Below are positions 31,333 to 61,146 of a stretch of 64,000 nt of DNA, in pieces (within the stretch, counting starts at the first letter, position 1; every line of letters begins with the position of its first letter). This DNA is from a virus: positions 60,013 to 124,012 of the IMG/VR virus record IMGVR_UViG_3300042894_008159; one strand, given 5' to 3'. The position numbers were made by a program, and so were the translations under genes. Under the pieces are notes generated by a model that was not told the DNA's origin, did no database searches, and saw only the letters and a list, made by a program, of their open reading frames with translations.

Positions 31333-31808
31333 GATATAAACGAATTTATGAATTGCATAATCTGTTCCCAATACCTAACAACATAACTAAGAGCTACCAT
31401 TTCTAAACAGAATCTGAGCAACCAAATCCAACTTAATTCCCGATAGACAAAATAATAAACAACTAAAAATGAATCACCCCTAGTTTCTTTTAGTGGTTTG
31501 AGAAAAGGTGCGATCAATTCGTGCAAATTCAAACGGGTTAGATATTCGTTGATGGGCCTGATTTCTTCAAAGACAAAAGCTGGTCTTGCATCATCAGGAA
31601 AATCCCTAGATTGTGTAACTTCAGGAGGAAGATTCACGACGGTATAAATTCTACCGAACCAATCTTTTCTTAATCTTAATTTGCTCCATTGAGGAGAACT
31701 TAGTGATTCTTTTTTTATAACTGTAAGGTAGTCTGAATATAATTTCAAGTCCTTTAGGACACCCCATAATCTAAGGGTAACTATTATTCTGCCTAGAAAG
31801 TCAATCAT
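31326..31808 (-). CDS. Uncharacterised protein with C-terminal membrane segment
   Basis: The 160-residue protein has a basic N-terminal half with aromatic and proline-rich parts (WFGRIYTVVNLPPEVTQSRD) and a hydrophobic C-terminal third (FLVVYYFVYRELSWIWLL, then FCLEMVALSYVVRYW). This predicts one or two membrane passes near residues 113-155. It overlaps the sigma-factor gene upstream by 4 bp and the nuclease gene by 7 bp. I do not recognise a function. Confidence 0.6.
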   Translation of the reverse strand: MIDFLGRIIVTLRLWGVLKDLKLYSDYLTVIKKESLSSPQWSKLRLRKDWFGRIYTVVNLPPEVTQSRDFPDDARPAFVFEEIRPINEYLTRLNLHELIAPFLKPLKETRGDSFLVVYYFVYRELSWIWLLRFCLEMVALSYVVRYWEQIMQFINSFISW

Positions 31809-32422
31809 TTCTTAGAATTTTTTTTTGTCAAGGTCTCAATTTTCTTTCGAATTTTTGTTCTGGCCCTTCTGATTCTCGTAGCAATAGATCTCTTCTTAAT
31901 TCCATACTTGTCGGCTATGTCTTTGTACTTCATACCATAGATCTCTCGGTCAATCATGATGTCTCGATAAAGTTCAGGAAGGTCCCTAATTTCATCTACA
32001 ACCTGCTCATAAACTTCATCAATATCTGATCCACCTGCTAAAAAACTCCAAATGGGATCTTCTTCCACCGAATAAACCACAGAGTCTGAATCCATTTTAG
32101 TTGAATCTAATTCGATTTCTTCTGTGGTTTTTGTTATAAGTCTTTTCCTACTTTTTTGTAAAAGCAAAGATTCATTTTTAGCTATGTTGTAGCACCAGGT
32201 GGAAAAATTTCCTTTTTCTGAATCATATTGGTCTATTTTTTGCCAGACCTTGGCCATGGAATTTAAAAAAGCATCCTCTGCTAATTCCATGTCGTTGAGG
32301 ATAGTGAAACAGTGGTTTAAGACTCCGGGTTTAAGCCTTTCAAATAAAAATTTAAAAGACGTGTCATCTTTACCATGTATAAAATTTTCTGCTAATACTT
32401 GAATGTTTTTCTCCTTTGCCAT
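31805..32422 (-). CDS. ECF-type sigma-70 family factor
   Basis: The 205-residue protein has region 2 (around VLNHCFTILNDMELAEDAFL, then KIDQYDSEKGNFSTWCYNIA) and a region-4 helix-turn-helix (LPELYRDIMIDREIYGMKY, then DIADKYGIKKRSIATRIRRA). The layout is that of ECF sigma factors, with a longer acidic linker between the domains. It would direct RNA polymerase to a second phage promoter class. This is in addition to the gp55-like sigma at 24210-24569, so two sigma-like factors occur within 8 kb. It sits between dCMP deaminase and a membrane protein gene. Confidence 0.87.
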   Translation of the reverse strand: MAKEKNIQVLAENFIHGKDDTSFKFLFERLKPGVLNHCFTILNDMELAEDAFLNSMAKVWQKIDQYDSEKGNFSTWCYNIAKNESLLLQKSRKRLITKTTEEIELDSTKMDSDSVVYSVEEDPIWSFLAGGSDIDEVYEQVVDEIRDLPELYRDIMIDREIYGMKYKDIADKYGIKKRSIATRIRRARTKIRKKIETLTKKNSKK

Positions 32423-32433
32423 TTTTTAATTCT

Positions 32434-33012
32434 CTAGATTTTTTTTCCCAATTTTATAATTTCAATACCTGCCTCTAATAAGAAAGACAGAGGCTCTGGT
32501 TTTCTATAGACCTTGCCAAAAACTATTCTTTTAATCCCTGACTGAATAATCAACTTAGAACATTCAAAACAAGGAGAAACTGTTACATACATAGTTGATC
32601 CCTCGGAACTTTGTGTACTCTTGGCAAGTTTGGTGATTGCATTTGCTTCGGCATGTAGAACATAGTTTAAAGTGACAAAATCCTCATCTTCACATTCATT
32701 AGGAAATCCAGTAGGTGAACCATTATATCCATCGGCTATTATGGATTTATCTTTGACAATCAGGCTTCCTACCTTCATTCTTCTGCAATATGAATTTTGT
32801 GCCCAGATTTCAGCCATAGACAAATAGACTGGGTCAGTTTTAATATCTTTTGGCTTATAAAAGGTTTCGTCTTTTAAATTTTCAATTTCACTGAAAACAA
32901 AAACATTTTCTGATTTAGGATTTGCCACCCATGAAAATTCTTCATATATAGTCAAATCTTTGAAGAAATCGGATGTAGGTACTTCTTTGAATTTAAATTT
33001 CTGTGTGCTCAT
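32434..33012 (-). CDS. cd: dCMP deaminase
   Basis: This zinc-dependent deaminase has 192 residues, like T4 Cd (193). The zinc site is HAE at residues 120-122 (His-120 ligand, Glu-122 proton shuttle) and PCFEC at 147-151 (Cys-148 and Cys-151). The NGSPTGFPNECED segment (97-109) matches the substrate loop of phage dCMP deaminases. It converts dCMP to dUMP for dTTP synthesis. An unusual N-terminal extension of about 55 residues precedes the catalytic fold. It lies between the tape-measure-like gene and the ECF sigma gene. Confidence 0.92.
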   Translation of the reverse strand: MSTQKFKFKEVPTSDFFKDLTIYEEFSWVANPKSENVFVFSEIENLKDETFYKPKDIKTDPVYLSMAEIWAQNSYCRRMKVGSLIVKDKSIIADGYNGSPTGFPNECEDEDFVTLNYVLHAEANAITKLAKSTQSSEGSTMYVTVSPCFECSKLIIQSGIKRIVFGKVYRKPEPLSFLLEAGIEIIKLGKKI

Positions 33013-33083: not shown

Positions 33084-34562
33084 TTAAATAACATTTGAAC
33101 CGGGCCTAAATGGCATATCATTGGCAATTCGAAGTGGTCCAGATAAAGATTTATAAATTCCTGCAAGAAGTCCTTTGATTTCTTTAATGTCTTTAGAACT
33201 TATTGTTTCGTCTTTTTTGGATTCCTTAGAATTTTCCATTGGTTTTTTTTCAGCCGATTTATATTCAATTTCCCCCTTAGCCGGAATTGATTGGCTTTGC
33301 ATTTGTGATATAGGTTCGTCGGATGTAGATGTTGTTTTTTTAAACCCAGGCTTATTTAGAACAGGTGTTTCTTTTTTAACCTGTGAAGCTTTCATGTCAG
33401 AAGCCAATTTTTGCATTTCATTCGATAAAGATCCCATTGTTTGAATTTCATCTGGTGATACTTTTCCGCTTAAAGTTTGTTTGACACCCTGTTTGAAATT
33501 ATCCACTTTTGAGCTTATTCCTTCCTTCAGTTTAGAACCAATGTCTTTACCTTTAGACTTCAGAGATTCTAAAAGTTTAGGCTTGGTTGGAGAAATAACA
33601 GAGGATTCTTTTTTTTCCTTTTCGTTTTTGCTTTCTCCCTCTTTTTTTCTTTTCCCTTTCTTAGAGGGTTCTTCAATCGGATCTGTTTTGGACAAAAGCT
33701 GTACTTTATCCTGGAGTGCCTCAGTAGAAGCAATCCTTTTTGCAACTTCTTCTTTTGTTATTTCTTTCCGATAATTTTTTATAAAATTATCGAGATCCTC
33801 CTGAAGATCTTCCGGGTATTTCGCATAGTAATCCGGGTCTCCATCTAAAAGACTTTTTCTTTTTTTCTCAATCGCGGATTTTGGGACTTCGACACCAAAT
33901 GAATTCTTTACAGATTCTGCAAGTTTTGGCGTTCCTGTAACTATTTCAGAAGCTCCGGAGGTTTGGTTTAGTGATCGGGTTTCCAATGCTGCCTGACGTT
34001 CCTTGCTCTTTTTCATGCCTTCCAATTCCATTTGAAATATTCCTTCATCATTGGAAATGACTTTTTGATTTTTCTTAAGTTGAACTAGTTCCGGTCCTTT
34101 TTCACCGACGAGCGCTACCCCTTCTTTTTTCACATCTCCGCCCTCTGCAAATTTTGGAATTTTTGAGAATATAGACTTTGCAATTGACTCTAAAGTTTGG
34201 CCAGCTGGTTTTTCCGTGGTATTTTCTTTAGTTTCTTTCGTTTTGAACGAATTTTTAGCGATTCCGCTAAGGTCTCCAGTAATTTGTTTTGTAAGATTTT
34301 GGGTTAGACCTTTAGTGTTTTCTAATATCTCTTTGGCAAAAGATTGGGTTAGATTTTTGAAAAATTTCTCATTTTGAACTGACTGTGTTTCTTGAGGTGT
34401 GTCTGCTGGAGTTGGTTTTTTATCTTTCTCTCCTGTTATCTTTTTAAGTTGCTCTGTATTTTCGGCAGTTTTCTTGTTTTGCTCTCTGAGCTCTCGTACA
34501 AGTAAATCCATGTTGGTAGACAACATGGAAAGTTCTTTAAGTACTTGAGATTCTTGAGACAT
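33084..34562 (-). CDS. Tape-measure-like / tail-hub protein
   Basis: The 492-residue, Lys/Glu/Ser-rich protein begins with a coiled coil (LSMLSTNMDLLVRELREQN). Near residue 138 it has the FAEGGDVKKEGVALVGEKGP pattern that ends many phage tape-measure proteins (GG...A-L-V-G-E-x-G-P-E). The rest is charged helix and low complexity. It follows the gp26-like hub gene and its frameshift extension, the usual position of a tape-measure protein after the tail chaperones. At 492 residues it would give a short tail if it sets length alone. T4 uses gp29 for this role. A promoter-like GAATATATAAAGG sits directly before its ATG. Confidence 0.6.
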   Translation of the reverse strand: MSQESQVLKELSMLSTNMDLLVRELREQNKKTAENTEQLKKITGEKDKKPTPADTPQETQSVQNEKFFKNLTQSFAKEILENTKGLTQNLTKQITGDLSGIAKNSFKTKETKENTTEKPAGQTLESIAKSIFSKIPKFAEGGDVKKEGVALVGEKGPELVQLKKNQKVISNDEGIFQMELEGMKKSKERQAALETRSLNQTSGASEIVTGTPKLAESVKNSFGVEVPKSAIEKKRKSLLDGDPDYYAKYPEDLQEDLDNFIKNYRKEITKEEVAKRIASTEALQDKVQLLSKTDPIEEPSKKGKRKKEGESKNEKEKKESSVISPTKPKLLESLKSKGKDIGSKLKEGISSKVDNFKQGVKQTLSGKVSPDEIQTMGSLSNEMQKLASDMKASQVKKETPVLNKPGFKKTTSTSDEPISQMQSQSIPAKGEIEYKSAEKKPMENSKESKKDETISSKDIKEIKGLLAGIYKSLSGPLRIANDMPFRPGSNVI

Positions 34563-34594: not shown

Positions 34595-34768
34595 TTATTT
34601 CGAGAAATTAAAGACTTCTGATTGGCCTGACTCTTCCTGATTTTCTTTATTTTGTTTTTCTACCACCTTGTTGAGCTTATCTAGCCAAATTTGGTACTCG
34701 TAATATGGAATTTTTTCTATCCACTCAGGATCTAATTTGTGTTCGTTCCAAAGACGGAATTTCAAATC
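34595..34768 (-). other. Candidate +1 frameshift extension of the gp26-like hub protein
   Basis: The hub gene ends GAA CTA CTT TGA. A +1 slip from CTT to TTT on the minus strand at 34772-34767 reads GAT next and opens 57 codons (DLKFRLWNEHKLDPEWIEKI, then YYEYQIWLDKLNKV). CTT TGA is the exact shift site of bacterial prfB, and a GGAG stimulator lies 5 bases upstream at 34781-34778. The extension resembles the short helical second half of phage tail-chaperone pairs. A stand-alone start for it (GTG at 34855) would have no sensible ribosome site. Confidence 0.65.
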
Positions 34769-35861
34769 AAAGTAGTTCTCCAAAGATATCTGAAATAAGG
34801 AAAAGAGATCTGATCCCGTCGGGAAAGGAAATTGGTGCGGTGACCTCCTGAGCACCGCATTTAGAACAAGGTAAATTAACCTCCAATTTTGTTCCTATCT
34901 TCAACAAGTCTGTTACCTGAAATAAAATAGAAAATTCCTCCTTGGACCAGTTGTTTGACGTTTCTTCAAGCTCAGCCAATTTATTTTCATTCAAACTCCT
35001 CCAATCTTCGTATAGATGCGGAGCTATTTTAATAAAACTTTCATCAACATCCTTTCCTTGCCTAATTCTATTTCGAACATAAGTAGAAATTGCATCGATT
35101 ACTCCAATAGATGGAACCGTCAATTTTACAGTTCGAGATAACTTTGTGATATTTAAAACGAATTTTCGCTCGGATTTAGAATAGTAGGACATTAATTTCT
35201 CATCAATGACGTATTTGGACAAAACCCCAGTTCTTAACTCAATACCATTTTGGAATGGACAATCCCCAGTTTGGCATGTAGTTTTAGGTTTGAGAATAAT
35301 CATATTTTCACCTCTGACGAATGTCAAATCCCTTATGGTCATGATAATAAAAAACCGATCCTCCTGTTTGATTTCTTTGTAGGATACAACTCCATGCTGT
35401 GGAAACTTTATCACACAACATCTTTCTAAAATCAAATTTAATTTGGCATCTATGTCCAACATATCTGTTTCGTCGATGGTGGAAAAGTGTCTAATTTCTT
35501 TTACCTCTGCGGGTCGTATAGCAATTTGAACACCATCAGGGTAAAACAAGCCACCGGAAGGAAGAAGTGAAGGCGGTAAATTTTTCCACCCCAAGTCAGA
35601 GGGGCCAAAATCTTTTGGTTGAGAATTTTCAAAGCTTGTTGTAGGGGCAGGCTCGGATTTAATTTGTTGAGCCAGTCTTGTCTCTGATAAAACCGGTGTT
35701 TTTTCTTGTGCCTGTTGGAATAAAGCATTGGCTTCTTTCTCAGCCCTCACCTCTAAAGGATTTATTGGGTTTAGTACGGATATGTCATCATCAAAAGAAA
35801 TCCCACCAAGTTTTTCTTTTTCTTGTAAAATTTTTTCGGGTGATAAATTTTTTGGGTCCAT
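34767..35861 (-). CDS. gp26: Baseplate hub / tail assembly protein (gp26-like, T4_baseplate family)
   Basis: The 364-residue protein has the gp26-like features: LPSGGLFYPDGVQIAIRP, then AEVKEIRHFSTIDE, a LDAKLNLILERC-type segment, FIIMTIRDLTFVRGENM, then Cys pairs TTCQTGDCPF and CSKCG (residues 332-335) forming a probable zinc ribbon. T4 gp26 is a 208-residue hub assembly protein; this version is longer, with a ~100-residue N-terminal extension. It lies between tail tube and tape-measure-like genes, where tail chaperones are often found, and ends at the prfB-like CTT TGA site described separately. I infer a role in tail or baseplate assembly. Confidence 0.75.
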   Translation of the reverse strand: MDPKNLSPEKILQEKEKLGGISFDDDISVLNPINPLEVRAEKEANALFQQAQEKTPVLSETRLAQQIKSEPAPTTSFENSQPKDFGPSDLGWKNLPPSLLPSGGLFYPDGVQIAIRPAEVKEIRHFSTIDETDMLDIDAKLNLILERCCVIKFPQHGVVSYKEIKQEDRFFIIMTIRDLTFVRGENMIILKPKTTCQTGDCPFQNGIELRTGVLSKYVIDEKLMSYYSKSERKFVLNITKLSRTVKLTVPSIGVIDAISTYVRNRIRQGKDVDESFIKIAPHLYEDWRSLNENKLAELEETSNNWSKEEFSILFQVTDLLKIGTKLEVNLPCSKCGAQEVTAPISFPDGIRSLFLISDIFGELL

Positions 35862-35927: not shown

Positions 35928-36509
35928 TTATAGGAATTGATCCTGCCAGTAATCAGATTTCCACGTGGTATCAAGTATGTAAAGGGCATCCCCTGAATCA
36001 TAACTCAATGCCATAGTTGTTAGTGGTTCAACCAAAAAACAATTGTTCAAAGTTAATCTTCTGAATACATCTCCTTGTTTGTTGAAAATTGAAACAACAA
36101 TTTGACCAGTATAGTCTCTCTTTAATCCCATGGCACCGGTTAAAGGATTGTAAATCAAATCTGACCATTGTCTCATAATTTTAAATATGGTCATGGAATT
36201 GTTTTCGTTCAAATTCACCTCGAAAGCAATTGAAAATTGAACGTCTGAAGTGGAAGGTTCGCCGCCTGCATATCTTCTTTCTGCAAATTTATAATACTGA
36301 GTTACTGGAGCTGCAGGTTGGATGTCAACTGCCAGAGATCCAGTTACGCTTTTGACCTGTTGTGTCATAATAGATTCTCCATTGAACCTGACATTACCCA
36401 GAGTCACTCCTGCAGGAGGGGTAACCAGAACTTCGAATTGATTAAGGAAAACAGGCTCGAAATTATTTCGAGCTGCTAGAGAATTATTAAAATGAGGTAA
36501 ACCTGCCAT
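35928..36509 (-). CDS. gp19: Tail tube protein, second copy (gp19-like)
   Basis: This 193-residue protein is of T4 gp19 type (163 residues). It shares the MAGLPH(F/Y)xNSL start, NQFEV, IYNPLTGAMG, DYTGQIVVSIFNKQGDVFRR and the C-terminal TTWKSDYWQDQF block with its neighbour. Tube subunits stack in hexameric rings inside the sheath and form the DNA channel. It starts 17 bp after the first copy. Both copies are full length and open. It may form a different tube layer, a tail-end cap, or a gp54-like baseplate tube starter. Confidence 0.9.
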   Translation of the reverse strand: MAGLPHFNNSLAARNNFEPVFLNQFEVLVTPPAGVTLGNVRFNGESIMTQQVKSVTGSLAVDIQPAAPVTQYYKFAERRYAGGEPSTSDVQFSIAFEVNLNENNSMTIFKIMRQWSDLIYNPLTGAMGLKRDYTGQIVVSIFNKQGDVFRRLTLNNCFLVEPLTTMALSYDSGDALYILDTTWKSDYWQDQFL

Positions 36510-36525: not shown

Positions 36526-37080
36526 TTAGGTGAAAAGATCATCCCAATAATCAACCGCCCATGTCATGGTGATTTCATACAGGGTAGTTCCGTTGATATA
36601 ATCTAACTCCATCGGGTCAATAGCTTTCATAGGAAAACAGTCGCGACACGTAATTCTCCTGAAAACGTCTCCGTTTTTATTGAAAATAGAAATAATGATC
36701 GTGCCAGTATAATCCGTTTTAATTCCCATAGCTCCAGTCAATGGATTGTAAATTAAATCAGTCCATTGTCTAAGAGTTTTAAACGTGTACATAGAATTGT
36801 CGTCATTTAAATTCACAGTAAATTTCACGCTCAAATCCAAACTTGTTTTATCTGGCTTACCACCCGCATAGTTTCTTTTGGAAAACTTGTATTTCTGAAA
36901 CACAAAAGATGGATTTTTATCAACGTCCATGCCGTTGACGTTTACGACCTGTTGTAACAAAATTTGACCACCCAGAACAGCTGCTGGGGGAATCACAGTT
37001 ACCTCAAATTGGTTGAGATAAACTGGCTCGTATTTGTTGATCGAATACAATGAATTTTGGTAGTGTGGTAAACCGGCCAT
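36526..37080 (-). CDS. gp19: Tail tube protein, first copy (gp19-like)
   Basis: This is the 184-residue paralogue of the 35928 product, with MAGLPHYQNSL, NQFEVTVIPP, IYNPLTGAMG, DYTGTIIISIFNKNGDVFRR and TMTWAVDYWDDLF. It directly follows the sheath gene (53-bp gap), as gp19 follows gp18 in T4. The gap holds a GATAAATA box, very close to the T4 late promoter. It is likely the main tube subunit, by its position next to the sheath and its own promoter. Confidence 0.92.
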   Translation of the reverse strand: MAGLPHYQNSLYSINKYEPVYLNQFEVTVIPPAAVLGGQILLQQVVNVNGMDVDKNPSFVFQKYKFSKRNYAGGKPDKTSLDLSVKFTVNLNDDNSMYTFKTLRQWTDLIYNPLTGAMGIKTDYTGTIIISIFNKNGDVFRRITCRDCFPMKAIDPMELDYINGTTLYEITMTWAVDYWDDLFT

Positions 37081-37132: not shown

Positions 37133-40100
37133 TTATACAAAGTTGATGAAACCACCGGATGCAATTCCACCGGTTCGAGTTACTGTGATTCTGTTGATGA
37201 ATTTCTGGATTCCTCGAGCTGGCTCAATAATCACATCAATAATACCCATGTTCATGTCGATAACAGAAGGAGGATTATTAGATGCATCCATGATTACCTG
37301 GTAAGCATAAATACCACCCCCGGCTCGAACCCCGTCCAAATAGGTATCAACCAAAGTTTTAATTTCAAGACGGATTGAATCCTCGTTGAAATCGAACAGA
37401 TAGTTGGATAGAATTTCTTCAACGTCGTTCTCAAGACTAATTAACAAATCTCTGACGTGGAGTAAACCAAAGGCAGAACTAACAGTTTGATACGCTGTTT
37501 GATTACCGAAAATAACGACTCCGAAACCTCTTTTCTTTATGATCGGATTCAATCCGAAAGGTTCCAACCATCCACGATCTTCATCTGTAAAGTCATATTC
37601 TACTCCTACAATGTTACCTCCAGAGATCGTACCTCTTTTTTGACCTGCGATAATGTTGTAAGGTTCTCCATTTGCGAATTTTCTTACAAAATTGTTGGAG
37701 ACATAAGCAGCTGGTGGAACATTTGTGTTTCTATTATTTTCTCTGATGGTTATATATGGTGTGAAATAACCAGCAAATGAAGCCCCTAGATCTTGGGTTG
37801 GAAGACTAAATGTATAAGAAGGGTTCAGAGATAGGTTTCCACCTTCAGCAATATATTGAGCTTCTAGTGGAGGAAATGGATCTACTGCTGTTGGAGCGTT
37901 AGTAAATCTTGGGTCTGTGCTAGCTCTAAACTGTGCCATAGAAGGAGCATTAATGAATGCCAAAGCCTTTTGCCTCATCATAGCCAACTTAGAAAGTTGG
38001 TACTTCGAATTCGGTTGAATTGTTCCACTGAAAGTATCTACGATATAACGGAAGGAAATAACGTCTTTGGTTGCCAAAGTTGCAGCCAGATTTGTATCAT
38101 AAAGAACGTTCAAAATCTCATCAACTCTCGCATCAGTTCCATTAGGTCTTTGAGCATCCCTCATGGTGTAACCACTCAAATAAATGAAATCGAAAGATCT
38201 AGTAAATTGGGGTATTGACTTGAACTTCTGAACCTGTACTGGAGATCCAGAATAAAATAAGATGGGTCTAGCACAGACAACTCTAACAACTCCTGAAGTA
38301 GTGGTTTGTGCTACGGCGGTTACTTTAGTCAACCTCGATTGTCTGTTAGCTCCTACCGTTTCACACAATTCTAAGTCAGTAGAAACCAAATAGTCTCCAA
38401 CTGAAATTATTTTATTGTTAATCTGATCCGGAACGAACGTAAAGCTTGTAGTATCTATTTTGGTTAATACATCTAGGAATTGATTGATAGATGCTACACT
38501 TGATACTATGTCGGTTTGAGAAGAACCAACAGTAAATCCAATATTATCTGAAGCATATACAGTTCCAAAATTGGGGTAATTAACAAGATTGTCTGGACTC
38601 TGTCTGGCAATATTATTGAAAGATCTAACATAAGAGACATTGAATTGATCTCTGTCAACTGTTGTTTGAGTATCTAGATAAAGGATGTTCGTTCCTGCTG
38701 CGTCTAGCCAAACAGTATCACCATCTTCGATCTGATCTGCTTGTGAACCTGTTGGGCCTCCTATTTCAGAGTACAAAATGTTTTGATACAATCTAGTTGA
38801 GATTTGTCCGGTTAAAGCGTTTGAAGCTGTACCTCCTGTGATAGAAGCAACATTTACGATGTCAAGATAATCAGATGCACCAAACTGTTGATAAAATTCA
38901 GAAACTATTCCAGAGGTTGTTCCCATTGTAAAGGAAGTAGGACTCACCTGAATTCCTTGAGAAGCATAAACTGGAGTATCCAGTGGATGTGTGAAAGTTA
39001 TGGTTAAATTACCTGCAATTTCCCTGACACCTGTTATTTTAAGTTTGACCAAGTCCCCGGTTGTAAATTGATTAATAACATTTCCGGTAGCTCCTGCAGG
39101 AATTGTAACTGTGCCAAGAATAAACGGAGTGTATGAAGGAGTGGGGGTAACAAAATCTTTCAATCTTAATTTTTCTGCTGAGGTTAAAGAAGGTTCAGTT
39201 AAGATATCTGCAGAAGCTGCCGCTCCCGTTCCCCCACCCCCCGAGAAGGTTACAGTCGGAGCGGATGTATAGCCAGATCCACTAGCTGTTAAAGTAATGC
39301 TAGATACCTCGTTCCCTGATATGATCGCAATGGCAGCAGCCCCCGTTCCTACTCCCGAGAAAGAGATCGTTGGTGCACTTGTGTAACCAGTGCCGCCGTT
39401 AGTAATATAAACATTTACAACTGCACCACCAGTAACACCGGAATTGGTACGAAGATAATGAAGACCACCAAATGTTAAACTTGGGTCGTAAGGTTCTAGA
39501 GAGGATGCTGGTACTCCAGCAGTAGGTCCAGTTGGTCCACCTAGGTTAAATAATGTTCCAACGTTCAATGGAATGTAGGCAACACCTGCTGTTCCTCCAG
39601 TAACTCCTCCACCAGTTATTCCGATTGAATTTTGGGTGTAAAGATAATCTTGAATCAACTGTTGGTCATAACTCAAAAAATTCAAGGTAGGATCCTGAAG
39701 GTCTCTATCTCCAGTGAGTTCGTCAATCAAGAAGTTACCAACCAAATCTACTTTGAACCTATTTTGACAAAGGTACTCCAAACCCTCGGCATCAACGGCA
39801 CAAAATAGTCCAGTAGAAGGGGTGTTGTTATTAACTAGTGTTTGGATGAATTGATTGTTACCATTAAGATCTACAAAATCAACAATCAGACATCCTGTTA
39901 CCTGGGTAATAATGTTGACATTTTGTTGACTAAGAAAATTGTTGATTTGACTTTTTATAAAACCATTGGGTGTAAAAAAGGCAGACCATTCTGGATCTTC
40001 AGACAAGGCCTGATAATTTGTCCAATCCCCAGAGACAGCTATAACATCAATAAACCAATCGGAAATATAATCATAAGGATGTACGTAACTAGGTACATTG

Positions 40101-40696
40101 TTTGCTCCATACCAATCGATGGCAAAAATGTCATATCCTTGGAGGGGAGGAGTAGCATCCGTAGATTTTCTAACAATAACAGACATAGACTGTTGTCCAA
40201 GATTCACTAAATTGAAAATTCTACCTTGGTCTACAACCGACATAGTAGCAAGAAAATAATCAACGTCTGCAAACCAGAATCTTTCTTTGTTGTAAAAAGA
40301 GGAGTACAAACGAGAAGTTAAAACCCCATTAGGCTCATCAGTAGCAACTGAAAAACCGAAATAGTCTACTTTGTCTGCAGTTGATGAAGTTTCATCGTTA
40401 TTTAATCTCAGCAAATTCAAAGCAAAAACCGGTCCCGTAGAAAGACAAGTTAAAATCGATCTCTGAAAAAAGCAACCTTGTGATTCTAGGTTTTTATCAA
40501 TGTCCCCGAAGATTGCAATTGCCGTGGTGACATCTGGTATATAAACCGGAGCATTAAAGGGGCCTTTATTCGAAAACCCAACAACCAAACGAATTGTTTG
40601 TGAGGTTAGGATGATGTTTTCAGAAGCATTAAATTCCAACGTATAAACGCCAGAAGCTTTGAATTGTGATAAATCGAGTTTGATTTTCTTAGCCAT
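37133..40696 (-). CDS. gp18: Contractile tail sheath protein (gp18-like) with a large insertion
   Basis: The 1,187-residue protein is nearly twice T4 gp18 (659). The N-terminal region (FKASGVYTLEFNASENIILT) and the C-terminal core (INEVGLA-type fold ending FINRITVTRTGGIASGGFINFV) are sheath-like. Near residues 430-495 there are two copies of the repeat GGTGYTSAPT(I/V)(S/T)FSG, and the surrounding region (about 300-650) looks inserted beta-rich domain. In T4 such insertions project outward and do not touch the contraction core. The gene sits between terminase and tube, as expected. Two late-promoter boxes precede it. Confidence 0.9.
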   Translation of the reverse strand: MAKKIKLDLSQFKASGVYTLEFNASENIILTSQTIRLVVGFSNKGPFNAPVYIPDVTTAIAIFGDIDKNLESQGCFFQRSILTCLSTGPVFALNLLRLNNDETSSTADKVDYFGFSVATDEPNGVLTSRLYSSFYNKERFWFADVDYFLATMSVVDQGRIFNLVNLGQQSMSVIVRKSTDATPPLQGYDIFAIDWYGANNVPSYVHPYDYISDWFIDVIAVSGDWTNYQALSEDPEWSAFFTPNGFIKSQINNFLSQQNVNIITQVTGCLIVDFVDLNGNNQFIQTLVNNNTPSTGLFCAVDAEGLEYLCQNRFKVDLVGNFLIDELTGDRDLQDPTLNFLSYDQQLIQDYLYTQNSIGITGGGVTGGTAGVAYIPLNVGTLFNLGGPTGPTAGVPASSLEPYDPSLTFGGLHYLRTNSGVTGGAVVNVYITNGGTGYTSAPTISFSGVGTGAAAIAIISGNEVSSITLTASGSGYTSAPTVTFSGGGGTGAAASADILTEPSLTSAEKLRLKDFVTPTPSYTPFILGTVTIPAGATGNVINQFTTGDLVKLKITGVREIAGNLTITFTHPLDTPVYASQGIQVSPTSFTMGTTSGIVSEFYQQFGASDYLDIVNVASITGGTASNALTGQISTRLYQNILYSEIGGPTGSQADQIEDGDTVWLDAAGTNILYLDTQTTVDRDQFNVSYVRSFNNIARQSPDNLVNYPNFGTVYASDNIGFTVGSSQTDIVSSVASINQFLDVLTKIDTTSFTFVPDQINNKIISVGDYLVSTDLELCETVGANRQSRLTKVTAVAQTTTSGVVRVVCARPILFYSGSPVQVQKFKSIPQFTRSFDFIYLSGYTMRDAQRPNGTDARVDEILNVLYDTNLAATLATKDVISFRYIVDTFSGTIQPNSKYQLSKLAMMRQKALAFINAPSMAQFRASTDPRFTNAPTAVDPFPPLEAQYIAEGGNLSLNPSYTFSLPTQDLGASFAGYFTPYITIRENNRNTNVPPAAYVSNNFVRKFANGEPYNIIAGQKRGTISGGNIVGVEYDFTDEDRGWLEPFGLNPIIKKRGFGVVIFGNQTAYQTVSSAFGLLHVRDLLISLENDVEEILSNYLFDFNEDSIRLEIKTLVDTYLDGVRAGGGIYAYQVIMDASNNPPSVIDMNMGIIDVIIEPARGIQKFINRITVTRTGGIASGGFINFV
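39200..39410 (-). repeat. Two tandem GGTGYTSAPT repeats inside the sheath insertion
   Basis: Two ~30-residue units, each reading (G/S)GTGYTSAPT followed by FSG-x-GTGAAA, lie at about residues 430-495 of the sheath protein. This repeat is common in structural proteins of marine T4-like phages and likely forms a surface beta-module. Confidence 0.8.
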
Positions 40697-52608: not shown

Positions 52609-55600
52609 CTAATCTTTAGGGAGAGATTTCTCTAAAGTTTCAATTCTAGAGGTCAGCTCTTGAATAGCATTAACTAAATGCCAAGTTACTCTGCTCGAAT
52701 TGACAGATAAAACACCATCGGATGTTTCTGAAACTGCTTCTGGAATAATTAATTGAAACTCCTGTGCTATTACACCAATCTGAATTCCTGGTTTTTTAAT
52801 GGCTCTGTTTTTTGGAATTTCGATAATTTCATCCTCTTTTCTATATTCGAAATTACGAACTCTTATGGAGTTAATAATTGACAAACCTTGTGAATTGTCA
52901 ATAATATTTTTTTTCAATCTTATATCGGAGTTTACTTGCCAACTTGGATCATTTTGTCCATTATAAGCTCCGTTAGTACCACCAATAAAAGCGGTATCAT
53001 CTGCTATACCTCCTGCAAGATCACCAATTACAATTTGATTTACCGCATTTGTTGCACTTCCTTCTGCACCTCGACCGATGATAACGTTTCCTGTTCCATT
53101 TATTAGCTGAGATCCTGCTTGATAACCAGCAGCAACATTTCTAGCTCCAACTGTCACATTTTTTAATGATTCAGATCCAACCGCCGTGTTTTGATTTCCG
53201 GTTGTGTTTGAACTTAAAGAAGCAGAACCAGCAGCAAGATTATTATCACCAGTTGTGTTTGAGTCTAGTGCTTGTGAACCTACTGCTACGTTATTATCAG
53301 CAGTGCTGAGCAACAAAGCATTGTGTCCTATTGCAACGTTGTTACTATTCACAACATTTGCTCCCAAAGCATCGTTTCCTATCGCAACATTTTGAATTCC
53401 TGTTGTGTTATCATCCAAGGCCTGATATCCAACCGCTACGTTGTTGGCACCAGTGGTGTTGACACCCAATGCGTTAAATCCCACGGCTAGGTTAGGTGTT
53501 CCAGTTGTATTGGAATCTAAGGCTCTAGAACCAACAGCTACGTTGTTGTCAGCCGTGTTGAGCAGCAAGGCATTATGTCCTACAGCCACGTTGTTGCTGT
53601 TGGTAGCGTTTGCTCCCAAAGCATCGTTTCCAACAGCAACATTTTGAATTCCTGTTGTGTTGACATCCAATGCCGAGTGTCCAACTGCTACGTTGTTGGC
53701 ACCAGTGGTGTTGGCTTCTAAGGCTAATGTACCTATGGCTACGTTAGGTGTTCCAGTTGTATTGGAATCTAAGGCTCTAGAACCAACAGCTACGTTGTTG
53801 TCAGCCGTGTTGAGCAGCAAGGCATTATGTCCTACAGCCACGTTGTTGCTGTTGGTAGCGTTTGCTCCCAAAGCATCGTTTCCTATCGCAACATTTTGAA
53901 CTCCTGTTGTGTTGGCATCCAAGGTCTGATGCCCAACAGCTACGTTGTTGGCACCTGTGGTGTTGAGACCCAATGCGTTAGTTCCTACAGCCACGTTTGG
54001 AGTACCTGTTGTGTTTGCGTCTAGTGCTAATGAACCTATGGCCACGTTGTTGCTGACAGTGTTGAGCAACAAGGCGTTGTGACCGAATGCTGTGTTATCT
54101 ACTCCTGTAGCAACAGCTCCTAAAGCCTCGTTACCAACTGCCACATTTCGGACTCCTGTTGTGTTGGCATCCAAGGTCTGATGTCCAACTGCTACGTTGT
54201 TGGCACCTGTGTTGTTGAGACCCAATGCGTTAGTACCTACTGCCACGTTTGGAGTACCTGTTGTGTTTGCGTCTAGTGCTAATGAACCTATGGCCACATT
54301 ATTGTTGGTAGTGTTTAGCAACAAGGCGTTGTGGCCGAATGCTGTGTTATCAGTTCCAGTGGCAACAGCTCCTAAAGCCTCGTTACCAACTGCCACATTT
54401 CGGACTCCTGTTGTGTTGGCATCCAAGGTCTGATGTCCAACTGCTACGTTGTTAGCACCTGTGTTGTTGACACCCAAAGCGTTAGTACCAACGGCCACGT
54501 TTGGAGTACCTGTAGTGTTTGCGTCTAGTGCTAATGAACCTATGGCCACATTATTGTTGGTAGTGTTTAGCAACAAGGCGTTATGTCCTAAAGCCACATT
54601 ATTCGTACCTGTAGCATTAGCACCTAAAGCATCAGTTCCTATGGCCACATTAGGTGTTCCAGTTGTATTGGCGTCTAAGGCTCTGGATCCAACAGCCACA
54701 TTATTGTTGGTAGTGTTTAGCAACAAGGCGTTATGTCCTAAAGCCACATTATTCGTACCTGTAGCATTAGCACCTAGAGCATCAGTTCCTATGGCCACAT
54801 TAGGTGTTCCAGTTGTATTGGCGTCTAAGGCTCTGGAGCCAATTGCTACGTTGTTGTCGGCTGTGTTTAAAAGTAAGGAGTTAAAGCCTACAGCCACGTT
54901 ATTACTGTTGATAAGGTTTGCTCCCAAAGAATCACTTCCGATTGCTATATTTTGTACACCTGTAGTATTGACGTCTAAAGCAGAAGATCCTATAGCTACG
55001 TTATTAGCACCCGTAGTGTTGGCATTGAGAGCGGTAGGTCCTAAAACTACGTTCGTTGCAATAGAACCCGCTCCCCTTCCAACTCTAACAGAGTTTACAG
55101 CCATATCTGAGCTTAAAACTTCTAAAGTAAATGTTGGAGCAGTCGTGCCACCGATTGTTATTCTACCGGTGTCATGGATCCTCATGACCTCTACTCCACC
55201 TTCCACGAATCCGATTGTATCTGCTGCTGGAAAGTAAATTCCAGTGTTTGTATCAGCACTATTTAAACCTGCTGAGATCGATGGATTAGTAACTGTACCT
55301 GCAGTCAAATCTAATCTTCTAGTACCAGCAGCTAAATTTACTAAGGCCATTATTTGTGTTGTACCAGCATACCAATAGTAAGCGCCATTAGCCGCTGATC
55401 CTATAATTGAATACCACATACTAGGAACACCACCGTCAGCCATATATCCCATACCAATGTCTACGGAAGCAGCACCTACACTGGGATAAAGAACAACTTT
55501 AGTACCAGCACTCCTTGTTGTGAATGCTGGTGGACCAGCTCCATTAGTATTGAAATCAATCCTATTAGATGTAACTCCATTTAAATAAATTTGTGATGCA

Positions 55601-58600
55601 CCTGTAGTTGGTGAGCCAGTACCTGTAAAAGATAAAGTAGGAGAAGTGTAAGTTAAATCAGATTCTACTGTAACGTTGGGTGAAGAACCGTTTAAAGTTA
55701 ATACACCATTATCAGTAGAACCAGATAAAGTGGCAAAACCAGAAGTTCCAGAAGATCCGGATGATCCTGAAGATCCGCTAGATCCAGAGGATCCTGATGA
55801 ACCAGAGGTTCCAGAAGATCCGGATGATCCTGAAGATCCACTAGATCCCGAAGAACCAGACGTTCCAGAAGATCCAGATGATCCTGAAGATCCACTAGAT
55901 CCCGAAGATCCACTCGAACCAGAAGAACCAGAAGATCCTGACGAACCAGACGTTCCAGAAGAACCTGATGACCCAGAAGATCCACTGGATCCCGATGAAC
56001 CAGAAGTTCCAGAAGAACCTGATGACCCAGAAGATCCACTCGAACCAGAAGAACCAGAAGATCCGCTAGATCCAGAGGATCCTGATGAACCAGAGGTTCC
56101 AGAAGATCCGGATGATCCTGAAGATCCACTAGATCCCGAAGAACCAGACGTTCCAGAAGATCCAGATGATCCTGAAGATCCACTCGAACCAGAAGAACCA
56201 GAAGATCCGCTAGATCCAGAAGATCCCGATGAACCAGAGGTTCCAGAAGATCCGGATGATCCTGAGGATCCACTTGAACCAGAAGATCCTGAAGAACCGG
56301 ATGATCCTGACGAACCAGATGTTCCTCTAGTACCAGAAGAGCCTGAGGTTCCGGAAGAACCAGAAGAACCAGAAGATCCGCTAGATCCAGATGAACCAGA
56401 TGTTCCAGAAGATCCTGACGAACCAGATGTTCCAGAAGAACCTGATGACCCAGAAGATCCACTAGATCCAGATGAACCTGATGTTCCAGAAGATCCTGAT
56501 GATCCTGAAGATCCACTCGAACCAGAAGATCCAGAAGATCCACTAGATCCAGATGAACCAGATGTTCCGGAAGAACCTGATGACCCAGAAGATCCGCTAG
56601 ATCCAGATGAACCTGATGTTCCAGAAGATCCAGATGATCCGGAAGATCCGCTAGATCCAGATGAACCTGACGATCCAGAAGATCCACTAGATCCAGATGA
56701 ACCTGATGTTCCAGAAGATCCAGACGATCCGCTAGATCCAGATGAACCTGATGTTCCAGAAGATCCTGATGATCCTGAAGATCCACTCGAACCAGAAGAT
56801 CCACTAGATCCTGATGAACCAGAAGTTCCTCTAGTACCAGAAGAACCAGAAGATCCACTAGATCCAGATGAACCTGATGTTCCAGAAGATCCGGATGATC
56901 CGGAAGATCCGCTAGATCCAGATGAACCTGACGATCCAGAAGATCCGCTAGATCCAGATGAACCAGATGTTCCAGAAGATCCTGATGATCCTGAAGATCC
57001 GCTAGATCCAGAGGATCCAGATGAACCTGAAGTTCCAGAAGAACCAGACGATCCAGAAGATCCACTAGATCCAGATGAACCTGATGAACCAGAAGTTCCA
57101 GATGATCCTGATGATCCTGAAGATCCACTCGAACCAGAAGAGCCAGAAGATCCGCTAGATCCAGAGGATCCTGATGAACCAGAAGTTCCAGATGATCCGG
57201 AAGATCCGCTAGATCCAGATGAACCAGAAGTCCCTCTAGTACCAGACGATCCAGAAGATCCACTAGATCCAGATGAACCTGATGTTCCAGAAGATCCTGA
57301 TGATCCTGAAGATCCACTCGAACCAGAAGAGCCAGAAGATCCGCTAGATCCAGATGAACCAGATGTTCCAGAAGATCCTGATGATCCTGAAGATCCGCTA
57401 GATCCAGAGGATCCTGATGAACCAGAAGTTCCAGATGATCCGGAAGATCCGCTAGATCCAGATGAACCAGACGATCCAGAAGATCCGCTAGATCCAGATG
57501 AACCTGATGTTCCAGAAGATCCTGATGATCCTGAAGATCCGCTCGAACCAGAAGATCCAGACGATCCACTTGATCCAGATGAACCAGAAGTTCCTCTAGT
57601 ACCAGACGATCCAGAAGATCCGCTAGATCCAGATGAACCAGATGTTCCAGAAGAACCTGATGACCCAGAAGATCCGCTTGAACCAGAAGAGCCAGACGAT
57701 CCAGAAGATCCACTAGATCCAGATGAACCTGATGTTCCAGAAGATCCAGACGATCCGCTAGATCCAGAGGATCCTGATGAACCAGAAGTTCCAGATGATC
57801 CGGAAGATCCGCTAGATCCAGATGAACCTGATGTTCCAGAAGATCCTGATGATCCTGAAGATCCACTCGAACCAGAAGAGCCAGAAGATCCGCTAGATCC
57901 AGATGAACCAGATGTTCCAGAAGATCCTGATGATCCTGAAGATCCGCTAGATCCAGAGGATCCAGATGAACCTGAAGTTCCAGAAGAACCAGACGATCCA
58001 GAAGATCCACTAGATCCAGATGAACCTGATGTTCCAGAAGATCCACTAGATCCAGATGAACCTGATGTTCCAGAAGATCCAGACGATCCGCTAGATCCAG
58101 ATGAACCAGATGTTCCAGAAGAACCTGATGACCCAGAAGATCCACTAGATCCAGATGAACCTGATGTTCCAGAAGATCCTGATGATCCTGAAGATCCACT
58201 CGAACCAGAAGAGCCAGAAGATCCGCTAGATCCAGAGGATCCAGATGAACCAGAAGTTCCAGATGATCCGGAAGATCCGCTAGATCCAGATGAACCAGAA
58301 GATCCAGAAGATCCGCTAGATCCAGATGAACCAGATGTTCCAGAAGAACCTGATGACCCAGAAGATCCGCTTGAACCAGAAGAGCCAGACGATCCAGAAG
58401 ATCCACTAGATCCAGATGAACCTGATGTTCCAGAAGATCCAGACGATCCGCTAGATCCAGATGAACCAGAAGTTCCTCTAGTACCAGACGATCCAGAAGA
58501 TCCACTAGATCCAGATGAACCTGATGTTCCAGAAGATCCTGATGATCCTGAAGTTCCAGAAGAACCAGACGATCCTGAGGATCCACTTGAACCAGATGAC

Positions 58601-61146
58601 CCACTAGATCCAGAGGATCCTGATGAACCTGAGGTTCCCCTAGTACCAGAAGAGCCTGAAGTTCCGGAAGAACCAGAGGATCCACTAGATCCAGATGAAC
58701 CAGATGTTCCAGAAGATCCTGATGATCCTGAGGATCCACTCGAACCAGAAGATCCCGAAGAACCAGAAGAGCCTGAAGTTCCGGAAGAACCAGAGGATCC
58801 ACTAGATCCTGATGAACCAGATGTTCCAGAAGAGCCAGAGGATCCGCTAGATCCAGAGGATCCAGATGAACCTGATGTTCCAGAAGATCCTGAGGATCCA
58901 CTTGAACCAGAAGATCCCGAAGAACCAGATGATCCTGATGAACCAGATGTTCCAGAAGAGCCAGATGATCCGCTAGATCCAGAGGATCCAGATGAACCTG
59001 ATGTTCCAGAAGATCCAGAAGATCCGCTAGATCCAGATGAACCTGATGTTCCAGAAGATCCCGAGGATCCACTAGAACCAGAAGATCCCGAAGAACCAGA
59101 TGATCCTGATGAACCAGATGTTCCAGAAGATCCAGATGATCCGCTAGATCCAGAGGATCCAGATGAACCTGAAGTTCCAGAAGAACCAGACGATCCCGAG
59201 GATCCACTTGAACCAGATGACCCACTAGATCCAGAGGATCCTGATGAACCTGAGGTTCCCCTAGTACCAGAAGAGCCTGAAGTTCCGGAAGACCCAGAGG
59301 ATCCGCTAGATCCAGATGAACCTGATGTTCCAGAAGATCCTGAGGATCCTGATGATCCACTCGAACCAGAAGATCCCGAAGAACCAGATGATCCTGACGA
59401 ACCAGATGTTCCCATAGTACCAGAAGAGCCTGAGGTTCCGGAAGAACCAGAAGAACCTGAGGATCCACTTGATCCAGATGAACCAGAGGTTCCAGAAGAA
59501 CCAGAAGATCCGCTAGATCCAGAGGATCCCGATGAACCAGAAGAACCAGATGATCCTGACGAACCGGATGTTCCAGAAGAACCTGATGACCCCGAAGATC
59601 CACTGGAGCCCGAAGAACCAGACGTTCCAGAAGATCCAGATGATCCTGAAGATCCACTCGAACCAGAAGATCCAGATGTTCCGCTAGATCCAGATGATCC
59701 GCTAGATCCAGAAGAACCACTCGAACCAGAAGAACCAGAAGATCCCGATGAACCAGACGTTCCTCTTGTACCGGAAGAACCCGATGATCCGCTAGATCCG
59801 GAGGATCCTGAAGAACCAGATGTTCCAGAAGAGCCAGACGATCCCGAGGATCCACTCGAACCAGAAGAACCAGAAGATCCCGATGAGCCACTAGTTCCTG
59901 ATGTACCATTTACACCAGATAGTCCAGAAGTACCATTAGATCCCGAGGATCCACTAGTTCCAGATGTACCATTTACACCAGATAGTCCAGAAGTACCTGA
60001 AGATCCAGATGAACCAGAAGATCCGCTAGATCCCGAGGATCCACTCGAACCAGATGAACCAGAAGAACCAGAGGATCCGCTAGATCCGGATGAACCTGAA
60101 GATCCGCTAGATCCAGAAGATCCCGATGAACCCGAAGTTCCAGAAGAACCTGATGATCCCGAAGATCCACTAGATCCAGAAGACCCCGAAGATCCGCTCG
60201 ATCCAGATGAACCAGATGTTCCAGAAGAACCAGATGATCCAGAAGATCCACTCGACCCAGAAGAACCAGATGATCCAGAAGAACCACTAGATCCAGATGA
60301 ACCAGAAGTTCCAGAAGAACCAGATGATCCAGAAGTTCCACTCGATCCAGAAGAACCAGACGATCCAGAAGATCCACTCGATCCAGAAGAACCTGATGTA
60401 CCAGAAGATCCACTAGATCCAGATGAACCAGAAGTTCCAGAAGAACCCGAAGATCCAGAAGAACCCGAAGATCCAGAAGAACCAGATGATCCAGAAGAAC
60501 CAGAGGATCCTGAAGATCCACTTGAACCAGATGAACCTGAAGTTCCAGAAGATCCAGAAGAGCCAGAGGATCCCGAGGATCCACTTGAACCGGATGATCC
60601 AGAAGATCCGGATGTACCAGAAGAACCAGAGGATCCTGAAGATCCACTAGATCCAGATGTTCCTCTAGTTCCAGAAGAGCCAGAGGATCCTGAAGATCCA
60701 CTCGATCCGGATGATCCCGAAGTTCCAGAAGAACCAGATGATCCAGAAGAACCACTTGATCCGGATGTACCGGAAGTTCCGGCAGAAACTTGCCATCCGG
60801 AACCGGTATATCTATAAATTTGTCCATCCGAGGAATTAAAAATTATCATCCCCACTGCTGGATTAGGTACAGAATTTATGTCATTAAAAATAGGAAGAAT
60901 TAAACCACTCCCTTTTACAAAAGAAGCATCGTTAATAAGTACATTTCCAGCTGTTGCCCCTGTTGCCTGAATAAAAATTGAATCGCTCTGTCCAGAAGGA
61001 TATATTCTAATTGAACCATTGTCCAACACCTGAAAAGTTATTGGCTGATTTTCAGCAGTACCCCCGGCACCAAAGAATTTAAGAGTACCTTGCCTAGGTT
61101 CAATCTGTATGTTTTTTCCTGAAGTTCCAAAAGGTCCGGTTGGCAT
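52609..61146 (-). CDS. Giant collagen-like fibre protein with S74-type chaperone C-terminus
   Basis: The 2,845-residue protein has four parts: an N-terminal ~120-residue attachment domain; residues ~121-1802 made of Gly-Ser-Ser and Gly-Thr-Ser triplets; a head with repeats of the form NNVA-(I/V)-G-x-x-AL-x-x-NTTG (about residues 2030-2680), similar to YadA-type beta-roll head repeats; and a peptidase S74 intramolecular chaperone from NSDIRLKKNI (about 2740) to the end. The last part folds the trimer and then cuts itself off. Every third residue of the shaft is Gly, so it should form a collagen-like triple helix, but without Pro. The start ATG is 17 bp after a promoter-like box. Confidence 0.93.
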   Translation of the reverse strand: MPTGPFGTSGKNIQIEPRQGTLKFFGAGGTAENQPITFQVLDNGSIRIYPSGQSDSIFIQATGATAGNVLINDASFVKGSGLILPIFNDINSVPNPAVGMIIFNSSDGQIYRYTGSGWQVSAGTSGTSGSSGSSGSSGSSGTSGSSGSSGSSGSSGSSGTRGTSGSSGSSGSSGSSGTSGSSGSSGSSGSSGSSGSSGSSGTSGSSGSSGSSGSSGSSGSSGSSGSSGSSGSSGSSGTSGSSGSSGSSGTSGSSGSSGSSGSSGSSGSSGTSGSSGSSGTSGSSGSSGSSGSSGSSGSSGSSGSSGSSGTSGSSGSSGSSGSSGSSGSSGSSGSSGTSGSSGSSGSSGSSGSSGSSGSSGSSGSSGSSGSSGSSGSSGSSGSSGTSGLSGVNGTSGTSGSSGSNGTSGLSGVNGTSGTSGSSGSSGSSGSSGSSGSSGSSGTSGSSGSSGSSGSSGSSGTRGTSGSSGSSGSSGSSGSSGSSGSSGSSGTSGSSGSSGSSGSSGSSGTSGSSGSSGSSGSSGSSGTSGSSGSSGSSGSSGSSGSSGSSGSSGTSGSSGSSGSSGSSGSSGTSGSSGTMGTSGSSGSSGSSGSSGSSGSSGSSGSSGTSGSSGSSGSSGSSGTSGSSGTRGTSGSSGSSGSSGSSGSSGSSGSSGSSGTSGSSGSSGSSGSSGSSGTSGSSGSSGSSGSSGSSGSSGSSGTSGSSGSSGSSGSSGTSGSSGSSGSSGSSGSSGTSGSSGSSGSSGSSGSSGSSGSSGTSGSSGSSGSSGSSGSSGTSGSSGSSGSSGSSGTSGSSGSSGSSGSSGSSGSSGSSGTSGSSGSSGSSGSSGTSGSSGTRGTSGSSGSSGSSGSSGSSGSSGSSGSSGTSGSSGSSGTSGSSGSSGSSGSSGTRGTSGSSGSSGSSGSSGTSGSSGSSGSSGSSGSSGSSGSSGSSGSSGTSGSSGSSGSSGSSGSSGSSGSSGSSGTSGSSGSSGSSGSSGSSGSSGSSGSSGSSGTSGSSGSSGSSGSSGSSGTSGSSGSSGSSGSSGTSGSSGSSGSSGTSGSSGSSGSSGSSGSSGTSGSSGSSGSSGSSGSSGSSGTSGSSGSSGSSGSSGSSGSSGSSGSSGTSGSSGSSGSSGSSGTSGSSGSSGSSGSSGSSGTSGSSGSSGSSGSSGSSGSSGSSGSSGSSGTSGSSGSSGSSGSSGTRGTSGSSGSSGSSGSSGSSGSSGSSGSSGTSGSSGSSGSSGSSGSSGSSGSSGSSGTSGSSGSSGSSGSSGSSGSSGTSGSSGSSGSSGSSGSSGSSGSSGSSGTSGSSGSSGSSGSSGTRGTSGSSGSSGSSGSSGTSGSSGSSGSSGSSGSSGSSGSSGSSGSSGTSGSSGSSGSSGSSGSSGSSGTSGSSGSSGSSGSSGSSGSSGTSGSSGSSGSSGSSGSSGSSGSSGSSGSSGTSGSSGSSGSSGSSGTRGTSGSSGSSGSSGSSGSSGSSGSSGTSGSSGSSGSSGSSGTSGSSGSSGSSGSSGSSGSSGSSGSSGSSGTSGSSGSSGSSGSSGSSGTSGSSGSSGSSGSSGSSGSSGSSGSSGTSGSSGSSGSSGSSGSSGTSGSSGSSGTSGSSGSSGSSGSSGSSGTSGSSGTRGTSGSSGSSGSSGSSGSSGSSGSSGSSGTSGSSGSSGSSGSSGSSGSSGSSGSSGSSGTSGSSGSSGSSGSSGSSGTSGSSGSSGSSGSSGSSGSSGSSGSSGSSGTSGSSGSSGSSGSSGSSGTSGSSGSSGSSGSSGSSGSSGSSGSSGSSGTSGSSGSSGSSGSSGSSGTSGSSGSSGSSGSSGSSGSSGTSGFATLSGSTDNGVLTLNGSSPNVTVESDLTYTSPTLSFTGTGSPTTGASQIYLNGVTSNRIDFNTNGAGPPAFTTRSAGTKVVLYPSVGAASVDIGMGYMADGGVPSMWYSIIGSAANGAYYWYAGTTQIMALVNLAAGTRRLDLTAGTVTNPSISAGLNSADTNTGIYFPAADTIGFVEGGVEVMRIHDTGRITIGGTTAPTFTLEVLSSDMAVNSVRVGRGAGSIATNVVLGPTALNANTTGANNVAIGSSALDVNTTGVQNIAIGSDSLGANLINSNNVAVGFNSLLLNTADNNVAIGSRALDANTTGTPNVAIGTDALGANATGTNNVALGHNALLLNTTNNNVAVGSRALDANTTGTPNVAIGTDALGANATGTNNVALGHNALLLNTTNNNVAIGSLALDANTTGTPNVAVGTNALGVNNTGANNVAVGHQTLDANTTGVRNVAVGNEALGAVATGTDNTAFGHNALLLNTTNNNVAIGSLALDANTTGTPNVAVGTNALGLNNTGANNVAVGHQTLDANTTGVRNVAVGNEALGAVATGVDNTAFGHNALLLNTVSNNVAIGSLALDANTTGTPNVAVGTNALGLNTTGANNVAVGHQTLDANTTGVQNVAIGNDALGANATNSNNVAVGHNALLLNTADNNVAVGSRALDSNTTGTPNVAIGTLALEANTTGANNVAVGHSALDVNTTGIQNVAVGNDALGANATNSNNVAVGHNALLLNTADNNVAVGSRALDSNTTGTPNLAVGFNALGVNTTGANNVAVGYQALDDNTTGIQNVAIGNDALGANVVNSNNVAIGHNALLLSTADNNVAVGSQALDSNTTGDNNLAAGSASLSSNTTGNQNTAVGSESLKNVTVGARNVAAGYQAGSQLINGTGNVIIGRGAEGSATNAVNQIVIGDLAGGIADDTAFIGGTNGAYNGQNDPSWQVNSDIRLKKNIIDNSQGLSIINSIRVRNFEYRKEDEIIEIPKNRAIKKPGIQIGVIAQEFQLIIPEAVSETSDGVLSVNSSRVTWHLVNAIQELTSRIETLEKSLPKD
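53110..55060 (-). repeat. YadA-head-like tandem repeats in the giant fibre
   Basis: About 20-25 repeats of NNVA(I/V)G-x-x-AL-x-x-NTTG form a block of ~650 residues. Several units are near identical at the DNA level, such as those around 54280-54560, showing recent unequal crossing-over or gene conversion. Repeats of this type stack into a beta-roll head. Confidence 0.9.
55740..60790 (-). repeat. Ser/Thr collagen-like (G-S-S / G-T-S)n shaft array
   Basis: About 5 kb of 9-bp units encode ~1,680 residues of G-S-S, with G-T-S inserted every 4-9 triplets and rare G-T-R, G-L-S, G-V-N and G-S-N triplets. All other frames also stay open over kilobases because of the unit's codon set, which makes long false ORFs on both strands. 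Confidence 0.97.

Follow-up and report, generated by a model that had tools for sequence, protein, structure and literature searches.

We explain the locus described here best, and with good confidence, as a T4-type tail-assembly-chaperone gene of a myovirus in which part of the ribosomes would slip by +1 at UUU C(CC). The window, that is, the whole stretch of DNA that was analysed, comprises 64,000 nt of the viral record IMGVR_UViG_3300042894_008159 (record positions 60,013-124,012, in a contig of 124 kb). From the sequence comparisons it is very probable that a +1 frameshift joins a gp26-like protein to a gp51-like extension in a long form, and it is likely that the shift takes place at UUU C(CC), at 34826-34821. 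The features of the locus are collected in Table 1.

Table 1 Features of the putative tail-assembly-chaperone gene and its neighbours (positions in the window)
Feature	Position	Strand	Remarks
Tail sheath gene, upstream of the tail-tube-like genes	37133..40696	-	phrog_34521, E=3.4e-118
Two tandem tail-tube-like genes, upstream of the gp26-like gene	35928-36509, 36526-37080	-	phrog_45 tail tube, E=1.8e-7 and 1.4e-10
gp26-like gene, short form (TAC-N)	34767..35861	-	zero frame, 364 aa
GGAGGTC, SD-like, frozen codon choice	34842..34848	-	17 nt upstream of the proposed slip codon
TTTCCC, proposed +1 slip site	34821..34826	-	UUU to UUC or CCC to CCN would give the same product
Dual-coded overlap	34767..34823	-	codes for the short-form tail (zero frame) and for the beginning of the extension (+1 frame)
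+1-frame extension (TAC-C), gp51-like	34595..34822	-	75 codons and stop; predicted long form of 421 aa
GGAG upstream of CTTTGA	34778..34781	-	AGAG or GGAC in many relatives
CTTTGA	34767..34772	-	judged to be just the end and stop of the short form; 32/46 in the window clade, 0/53 elsewhere
Downstream gene, tape-measure-like by a weak match	33084..34562	-	492 aa; phrog_5062 E=1.5e-4, phrog_8892 E=2.8e-4

The zero-frame ORF matched phrog_36717 (E=2.7e-20) and phrog_150 "baseplate hub" (E=6.6e-4). Its AF2 model (pLDDT 75.5) has a core that matches T4-like baseplate hub assembly proteins among the predictions in BFVD and, by both kinds of matches, the N domain of the short form is homologous to that of gp26/gp51. 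On a second look the best match to a solved structure was the HK97 tail assembly chaperone 2ob9 (Z 5.0, rmsd 4.0 over 83 residues, Foldseek E 7.2), a resemblance of the predicted model that is suggestive only, and a profile search of the PDB gave nothing credible.

The sequence-only reading had described the end of this gene as GAA CTA CTT TGA with GGAG five bases before CTT, followed in the +1 frame by exactly 57 codons of a helical segment with a chaperone-like look. The sequence was found again as described, on the minus strand, where the +1 frame runs to a TAA at 34597-34595, exactly 57 codons beyond the zero-frame UGA. The extension matched phrog_634 "baseplate hub assembly catalyst", the T4 gp51 family, with an E value of 1.9e-6, and the gp51-like domain was found in the same (+1) frame in the relatives examined. 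In AF2 it was helical with a pLDDT mostly of 69-87, in a long-form model that was poor overall (pTM 0.29) and was used solely for the helical nature of the extension; in this weak model the CTT TGA junction proposed earlier (F246|D247) falls inside the extension's first helix (residues 242-256 of P0003). The +1-frame homology begins upstream of CTT TGA and runs on through it: FSLFQISLENYF of the +1-frame protein aligns with FFRIALLHNTLENYF of the cyanophages and with T4 gp51. A gp51-type C-terminal extension is present, by the phrog_634 match and by the alignment with T4 gp51 and the cyanophage products, and judged by its homology the +1 segment is a genuine protein domain and not a chance ORF. 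These comparisons support the earlier suggestions that the +1 frame is reached by frameshifting and that the two predicted products, gp26-like and gp26 plus gp51-like, form a tail-assembly-chaperone pair.

The genes around the locus are in the order sheath, tube, tube, chaperone and tape-measure-like, the upstream sheath and tubes being clear and the downstream tape-measure match weak (E about 1e-4). This arrangement, the homologies and the design with a short and a long form agree with a role as tail-assembly chaperones. The two tail-tube-like genes are tandem paralogues, each of them matching phrog_32623. The sheath gene codes for 1187 aa, and its region ~417-506, apparently an insertion, matches virion structural and tail-fibre families.

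Relatives of the locus were gathered by searches of viral contigs and phage records, and provided 99 junctions: 46 of the window clade (45 distinct ones and the window itself), 33 of an LR756502-type clade, 10 of an LR756500-type clade and 10 others, from the phages PAU, PTm1, pT24, MA9V-1, MaF61, Lak and LR75650x. A search of genome contigs for relatives of the window found none. The three clades are only about 28-40% identical to one another in protein. Relative to gp26, these relatives have an open +1 frame, with the gp51-like domain in nearly all of them, the Lak phages being the least clear case. The junction counts given below come from related, non-independent sequences and are to be read against the other columns of the same alignments (the backgrounds), not as probabilities.

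An in-frame TTT C, located 54 bases (18 codons) upstream of CTT TGA, was found at the same place in all the junctions of the three clades (46/46 in the window clade, 33/33 in LR756502 and 10/10 in LR756500, 89/89 altogether), and UUU C also stands at this place in PAU, pT24, MaF61, Lak and LR756501. Within the search range TTT C was present in 97 of the 99 junctions. In 17 junctions a +1-frame stop within two codons upstream of TTT C bounds the open +1 frame on its 5' side, and between TTT C and the zero-frame stop +1 stops were found in 0/97 junctions. In 17 junctions no ATG, GTG or TTG stands between the upstream +1 stop and a point 25 or more codons beyond UUU C; where these junctions belong to the window clade, the first start is in most cases codon 71 of 77.

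The choice of codons at this point is also constrained. In the window clade TTT was used in 44/44 (background 70%) and CCC in 44/44 (background 13%), and in the LR756502 clade TTT in 32/32 (background 60%) and CCC in 32/32 (background 1%). The LR756500 clade has TTT in 10/10 with C always next, the later codons up to a conserved Leu-Phe varying normally. All 13 invariant-codon columns of the window-clade gene are concentrated in its last 45 columns (13/24 there vs 0/98 elsewhere). Both GAG GTC and TTT CCC are frozen in their codons, and most of the codons between them vary at a near-normal rate (in LR756502 there is one invariant Met). Dual coding alone can explain invariance within the overlap, and invariance by itself does not fix the slip codon. 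At TTT C a +1 shift re-pairs perfectly (UUU to UUC, CCC to CCN), whereas a -2 shift does not. UUU_Ynn is a documented, especially +1-prone tetranucleotide in bacteria, and phage tail products made by a shift of +1, of -1 or of -2 have all been described (PMC5009743). The site in the window has this form, UUU followed by a pyrimidine, with the +1 frame open from there. We looked for a downstream hairpin or pseudoknot and found no structure shared across the junctions (z from -2.3 to +1.5).

A few of the most distant relatives depart from this arrangement. UUU C is absent at the aligned place in MA9V-1, PTm1 and LR756504 (L029, L026 and L035); MA9V-1 has a TTT C 7 codons later (ATT TTT C), PTm1 has one about 6 codons earlier and LR756504 none. 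These three keep the +1-frame domain, also without GAGGT, and may use another slip site. In LR756501 (L034, 1716-2081) there are ~23 extra residues between UUU CCC and the conserved extension, and because of them the conserved part begins only after the zero-frame stop.

The second frozen block is the SD-like GAGGTC. Its codons were GAG 44/44 (background 32%) and GTC or ATC 44/44 in the window clade, GAG 32/32 (background 25%) and GTC 30/32 (background 5%) in the LR756502 clade, and GAG 10/10 and GTC 10/10 in the LR756500 clade. GAGGT stands 17 nt from UUU in 42/46, 33/33 and 10/10 junctions of the window, LR756502 and LR756500 clades, respectively, and the remaining four window-clade rows have GAGATC at the position. 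The final C of GAGGTC is invariant in most rows, yet it is not complementary to the anti-SD. SD stimulators have been reported at 3 nt for +1 and at 9-14 nt for -1 shifts (PMC5009743), and GAGGUC at 17 nt is outside both spacings. A pairing of GAGGUC with a downstream GAUCUC, looked for by eye, is possible in the window clade and missing from the other clades, and was rejected.

The sequence-only reading had proposed an RF2-type +1 shift at CTT TGA, with GGAG acting as the stimulator. CTT TGA and GGAG are indeed present in the window, a purine-rich stretch before CTT TGA as in prfB, and CTT TGA or TTT TGA is kept in 41/46 junctions of the window clade. Conservation of the site across homologues failed, however: CTT TGA occurs in 32 of the 46 window-clade junctions and in none of the 53 from the other groups, and it is lost in relatives that keep the +1 domain intact, such as L179 and L181, which read CTT GGA TCT TAA, and L182, with CTT CGA CAT TAA. 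The likeness to prfB does not go far either, since the spacing of GGAG is 5 nt and not 3, the base after TGA is T and not C, GGAG is not conserved and the product is different. Furthermore, +1-frame coding of Tyr/Phe-Phe-Asp explains the pattern at CTT TGA, the +1-frame homology is already under way before this point, and the frozen GAGGTC and TTTCCC would be left without explanation. The sensitivity to RF2 level expected from such a signal found no comparative support, the zero-frame stop being TAA in 52/53 junctions outside the window clade. From the comparison of the junctions we consider an RF2-like site at CTT TGA probably wrong and a shift there quite improbable. The same frame could be entered by a -2 slip of tRNA-Phe at CTT TTC (34805-34800), from UUC to UUU. 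This was favoured at first for its alignment with the cyanophages, whose TTT TTC is at the matching position; it has a precedent in phage Mu, and CTT TTC is found in 44/44 of the window clade and ATT or GTT TTC in 32/32 of LR756502. It was dropped on the normal codon variation of the LR756500 clade (CTC, CTT, TTA, CTA; TTC, TTT), where TTTTC is not kept, and as TTTCCC and GAGGTC would again go unexplained we regard it as improbable.

The gp51-like protein might also be translated with no frameshift at all, from an independent or translationally coupled start at GTG 34855 or TTG 34783. The +1 frame of the window is already open 42 codons before the zero-frame stop and contains both codons, and many relatives have a GTG or ATG before UUU C. 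The earlier claim that the extension lacks a usable start holds only in part for the window itself; it holds for the 17 start-less relatives, where the domain is conserved nevertheless. In 17 junctions a +1 stop falls between GAGGTC and UUU C, and a start driven by GAGGTC could therefore not reach the domain. T4 gp51, moreover, has an N domain fused to this extension, and an independent start appears very unlikely. Finally, GAGGTC-N15-TTTCCC could be an internal promoter or another DNA signal, conserved for reasons unrelated to frameshifting, as two short invariant blocks at a promoter-like spacing might suggest. The 124-kb contig has a single exact copy of the motif, though, copies with 3 mismatches are no commoner than in shuffles (12 vs 17.4), and TTT C marks the upstream border of the open +1 frame in 17 junctions, all of which makes this possibility highly improbable. 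The slip models differ in the tryptic peptide that they predict, CGAQEVTAPISFPTGSDLFSLFQISLENYFDLK for UUU C, SLFSLFQISLENYFDLK for the -2 slip and SLFLISDIFGELLDLK for CTT TGA.

With a +1 slip at UUU C(CC), the locus would work as follows. Standard translation would give the 364-aa, gp26-like short form, while some ribosomes, on reaching UUU C(CC) 18 codons short of CTT, would advance by one extra base. The peptidyl-tRNA-Phe would leave UUU and re-pair with UUC, likewise a cognate codon; a move of tRNA-Pro from CCC to CCN would serve too, but less generally. Slipped ribosomes would end with the 421-aa long form, which carries the helical gp51-like extension. By pairing with the anti-SD, the conserved GAGGUC, 17 nt before the slip codon, probably slows the ribosome or puts it under tension, and our guess is that the hybrid ruptures near the UUU site. 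The short and long forms, in some fixed ratio, would load the tail-tube protein onto the tape measure like lambda gpG/gpGT.

In T4 the same two domains and the same short and long logic appear as two genes, whereas in the window the extension is in the +1 frame at UUU C(CC). T4 gp51 (249 aa) has both domains in one ORF, matching phrog_150 over nearly its whole length (2.6e-84) and phrog_634 (1.2e-23), and T4 gp26 corresponds to the short form, as a separate gene in divergent orientation. The 2022 work of Vladimirov and co-workers reportedly found frameshifting in several T4-like groups, with separate genes 26 and 51 in T4. The cyanophages carry the gp51-like domain in the -1 frame, as do Pelagibacter phage Mosig and Stenotrophomonas phage DLP6, and the point of the shift in the cyanophage type reads T TTT TTC throughout (35 distinct junctions, 41/41 unique ORFs). 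The cyanophage gp26-gp51 is an orthologous pair with a homologous extension and a shift at nearly the same protein position. It differs from the window in the -1 direction, in its slippery sequence, in lacking GAGGTC and in having almost no overlap; the -1 heptamer X XXY YYZ is not found in the window, where the extension is in the +1 frame and the sequence is CTT TTC and not TTT TTC. In Syn19, S-RIM50 and Mosig (L022-L024) gp51 is annotated as a separate CDS of 44-45 aa from an internal start, and its conservation reaches back to the -1 site T TTT TTC.

T4 gp26 and gp51 have a chaperone role in hub assembly (PMC3004832). PMC10885494 and PMC12846349 attribute the recognition of the two proteins as tail-assembly chaperones, with T4-like phages having one gene for the short and another for the long form, to Vladimirov, Gautam and Davidson (2022, Virology 566:9-15), and the T4-like frameshift signals that are cited are -1 polyT sequences (PMC12846349). 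Lambda gpG/gpGT, P2, Mu and HSTV-2 also make two chaperone forms by frameshifting near the tape-measure gene, a likeness of design; compared with the +1 of the window, the shift is -1 in lambda and -2 in Mu, and in HSTV-2 it has been reported as very likely +1 (PMC5009743). As for the site itself, +1 shifts at UUU-pyrimidine or CCC are known from UUU_Ynn sites, influenza PA-X (UCC_UUU_CGU), Yersinia YopN-TyeA and the CCC of Listeria phage PSA, in different genes and, as in the window, mostly away from a stop codon (PMC5009743). PA-X has no evident stimulator (PMC5009743), while the window site has the frozen GAGGUC 17 nt upstream.

The concept of gp26/gp51 as a chaperone pair, split into two genes in T4, is thus already published, and what would be new here is a +1 version of known chaperone frameshifting. 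A literature search on chaperone frameshifting in jumbo phages found nothing. We see an even chance that GAGGUC-N15-UUU C(CC) is an undescribed +1 cassette shared by a large group of T4-tailed phages, its SD-like element acting from 17 nt away, a distance beyond the known spacings; a single orthologous gene pair would then have been solved by -1 slip, by +1 slip and by gene duplication. The two forms appear to come from a -1 shift in cyanophages, from a +1 shift in the window and from two genes in T4, so that selection seems to act on the presence of both and not on the way in which they are made. How anti-SD pairing acts on elongating ribosomes becomes a testable question with the frozen GAGGUC at 17 nt. 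An internal slip site leaves no stop-codon cue, and for this reason annotation misses the extension, which is called as a separate small gene or omitted.

Elsewhere in the window, a sigma-factor-like gene and a dCMP deaminase gene (31805-33012) are found just downstream of the tail-assembly genes. A collagen-like, repetitive tail-fibre gene of 2845 aa extends from 52609 to 61146 (-), and the 1713-aa open frame opposite to it (55676-60817, +) is probably a by-product of the repeats.
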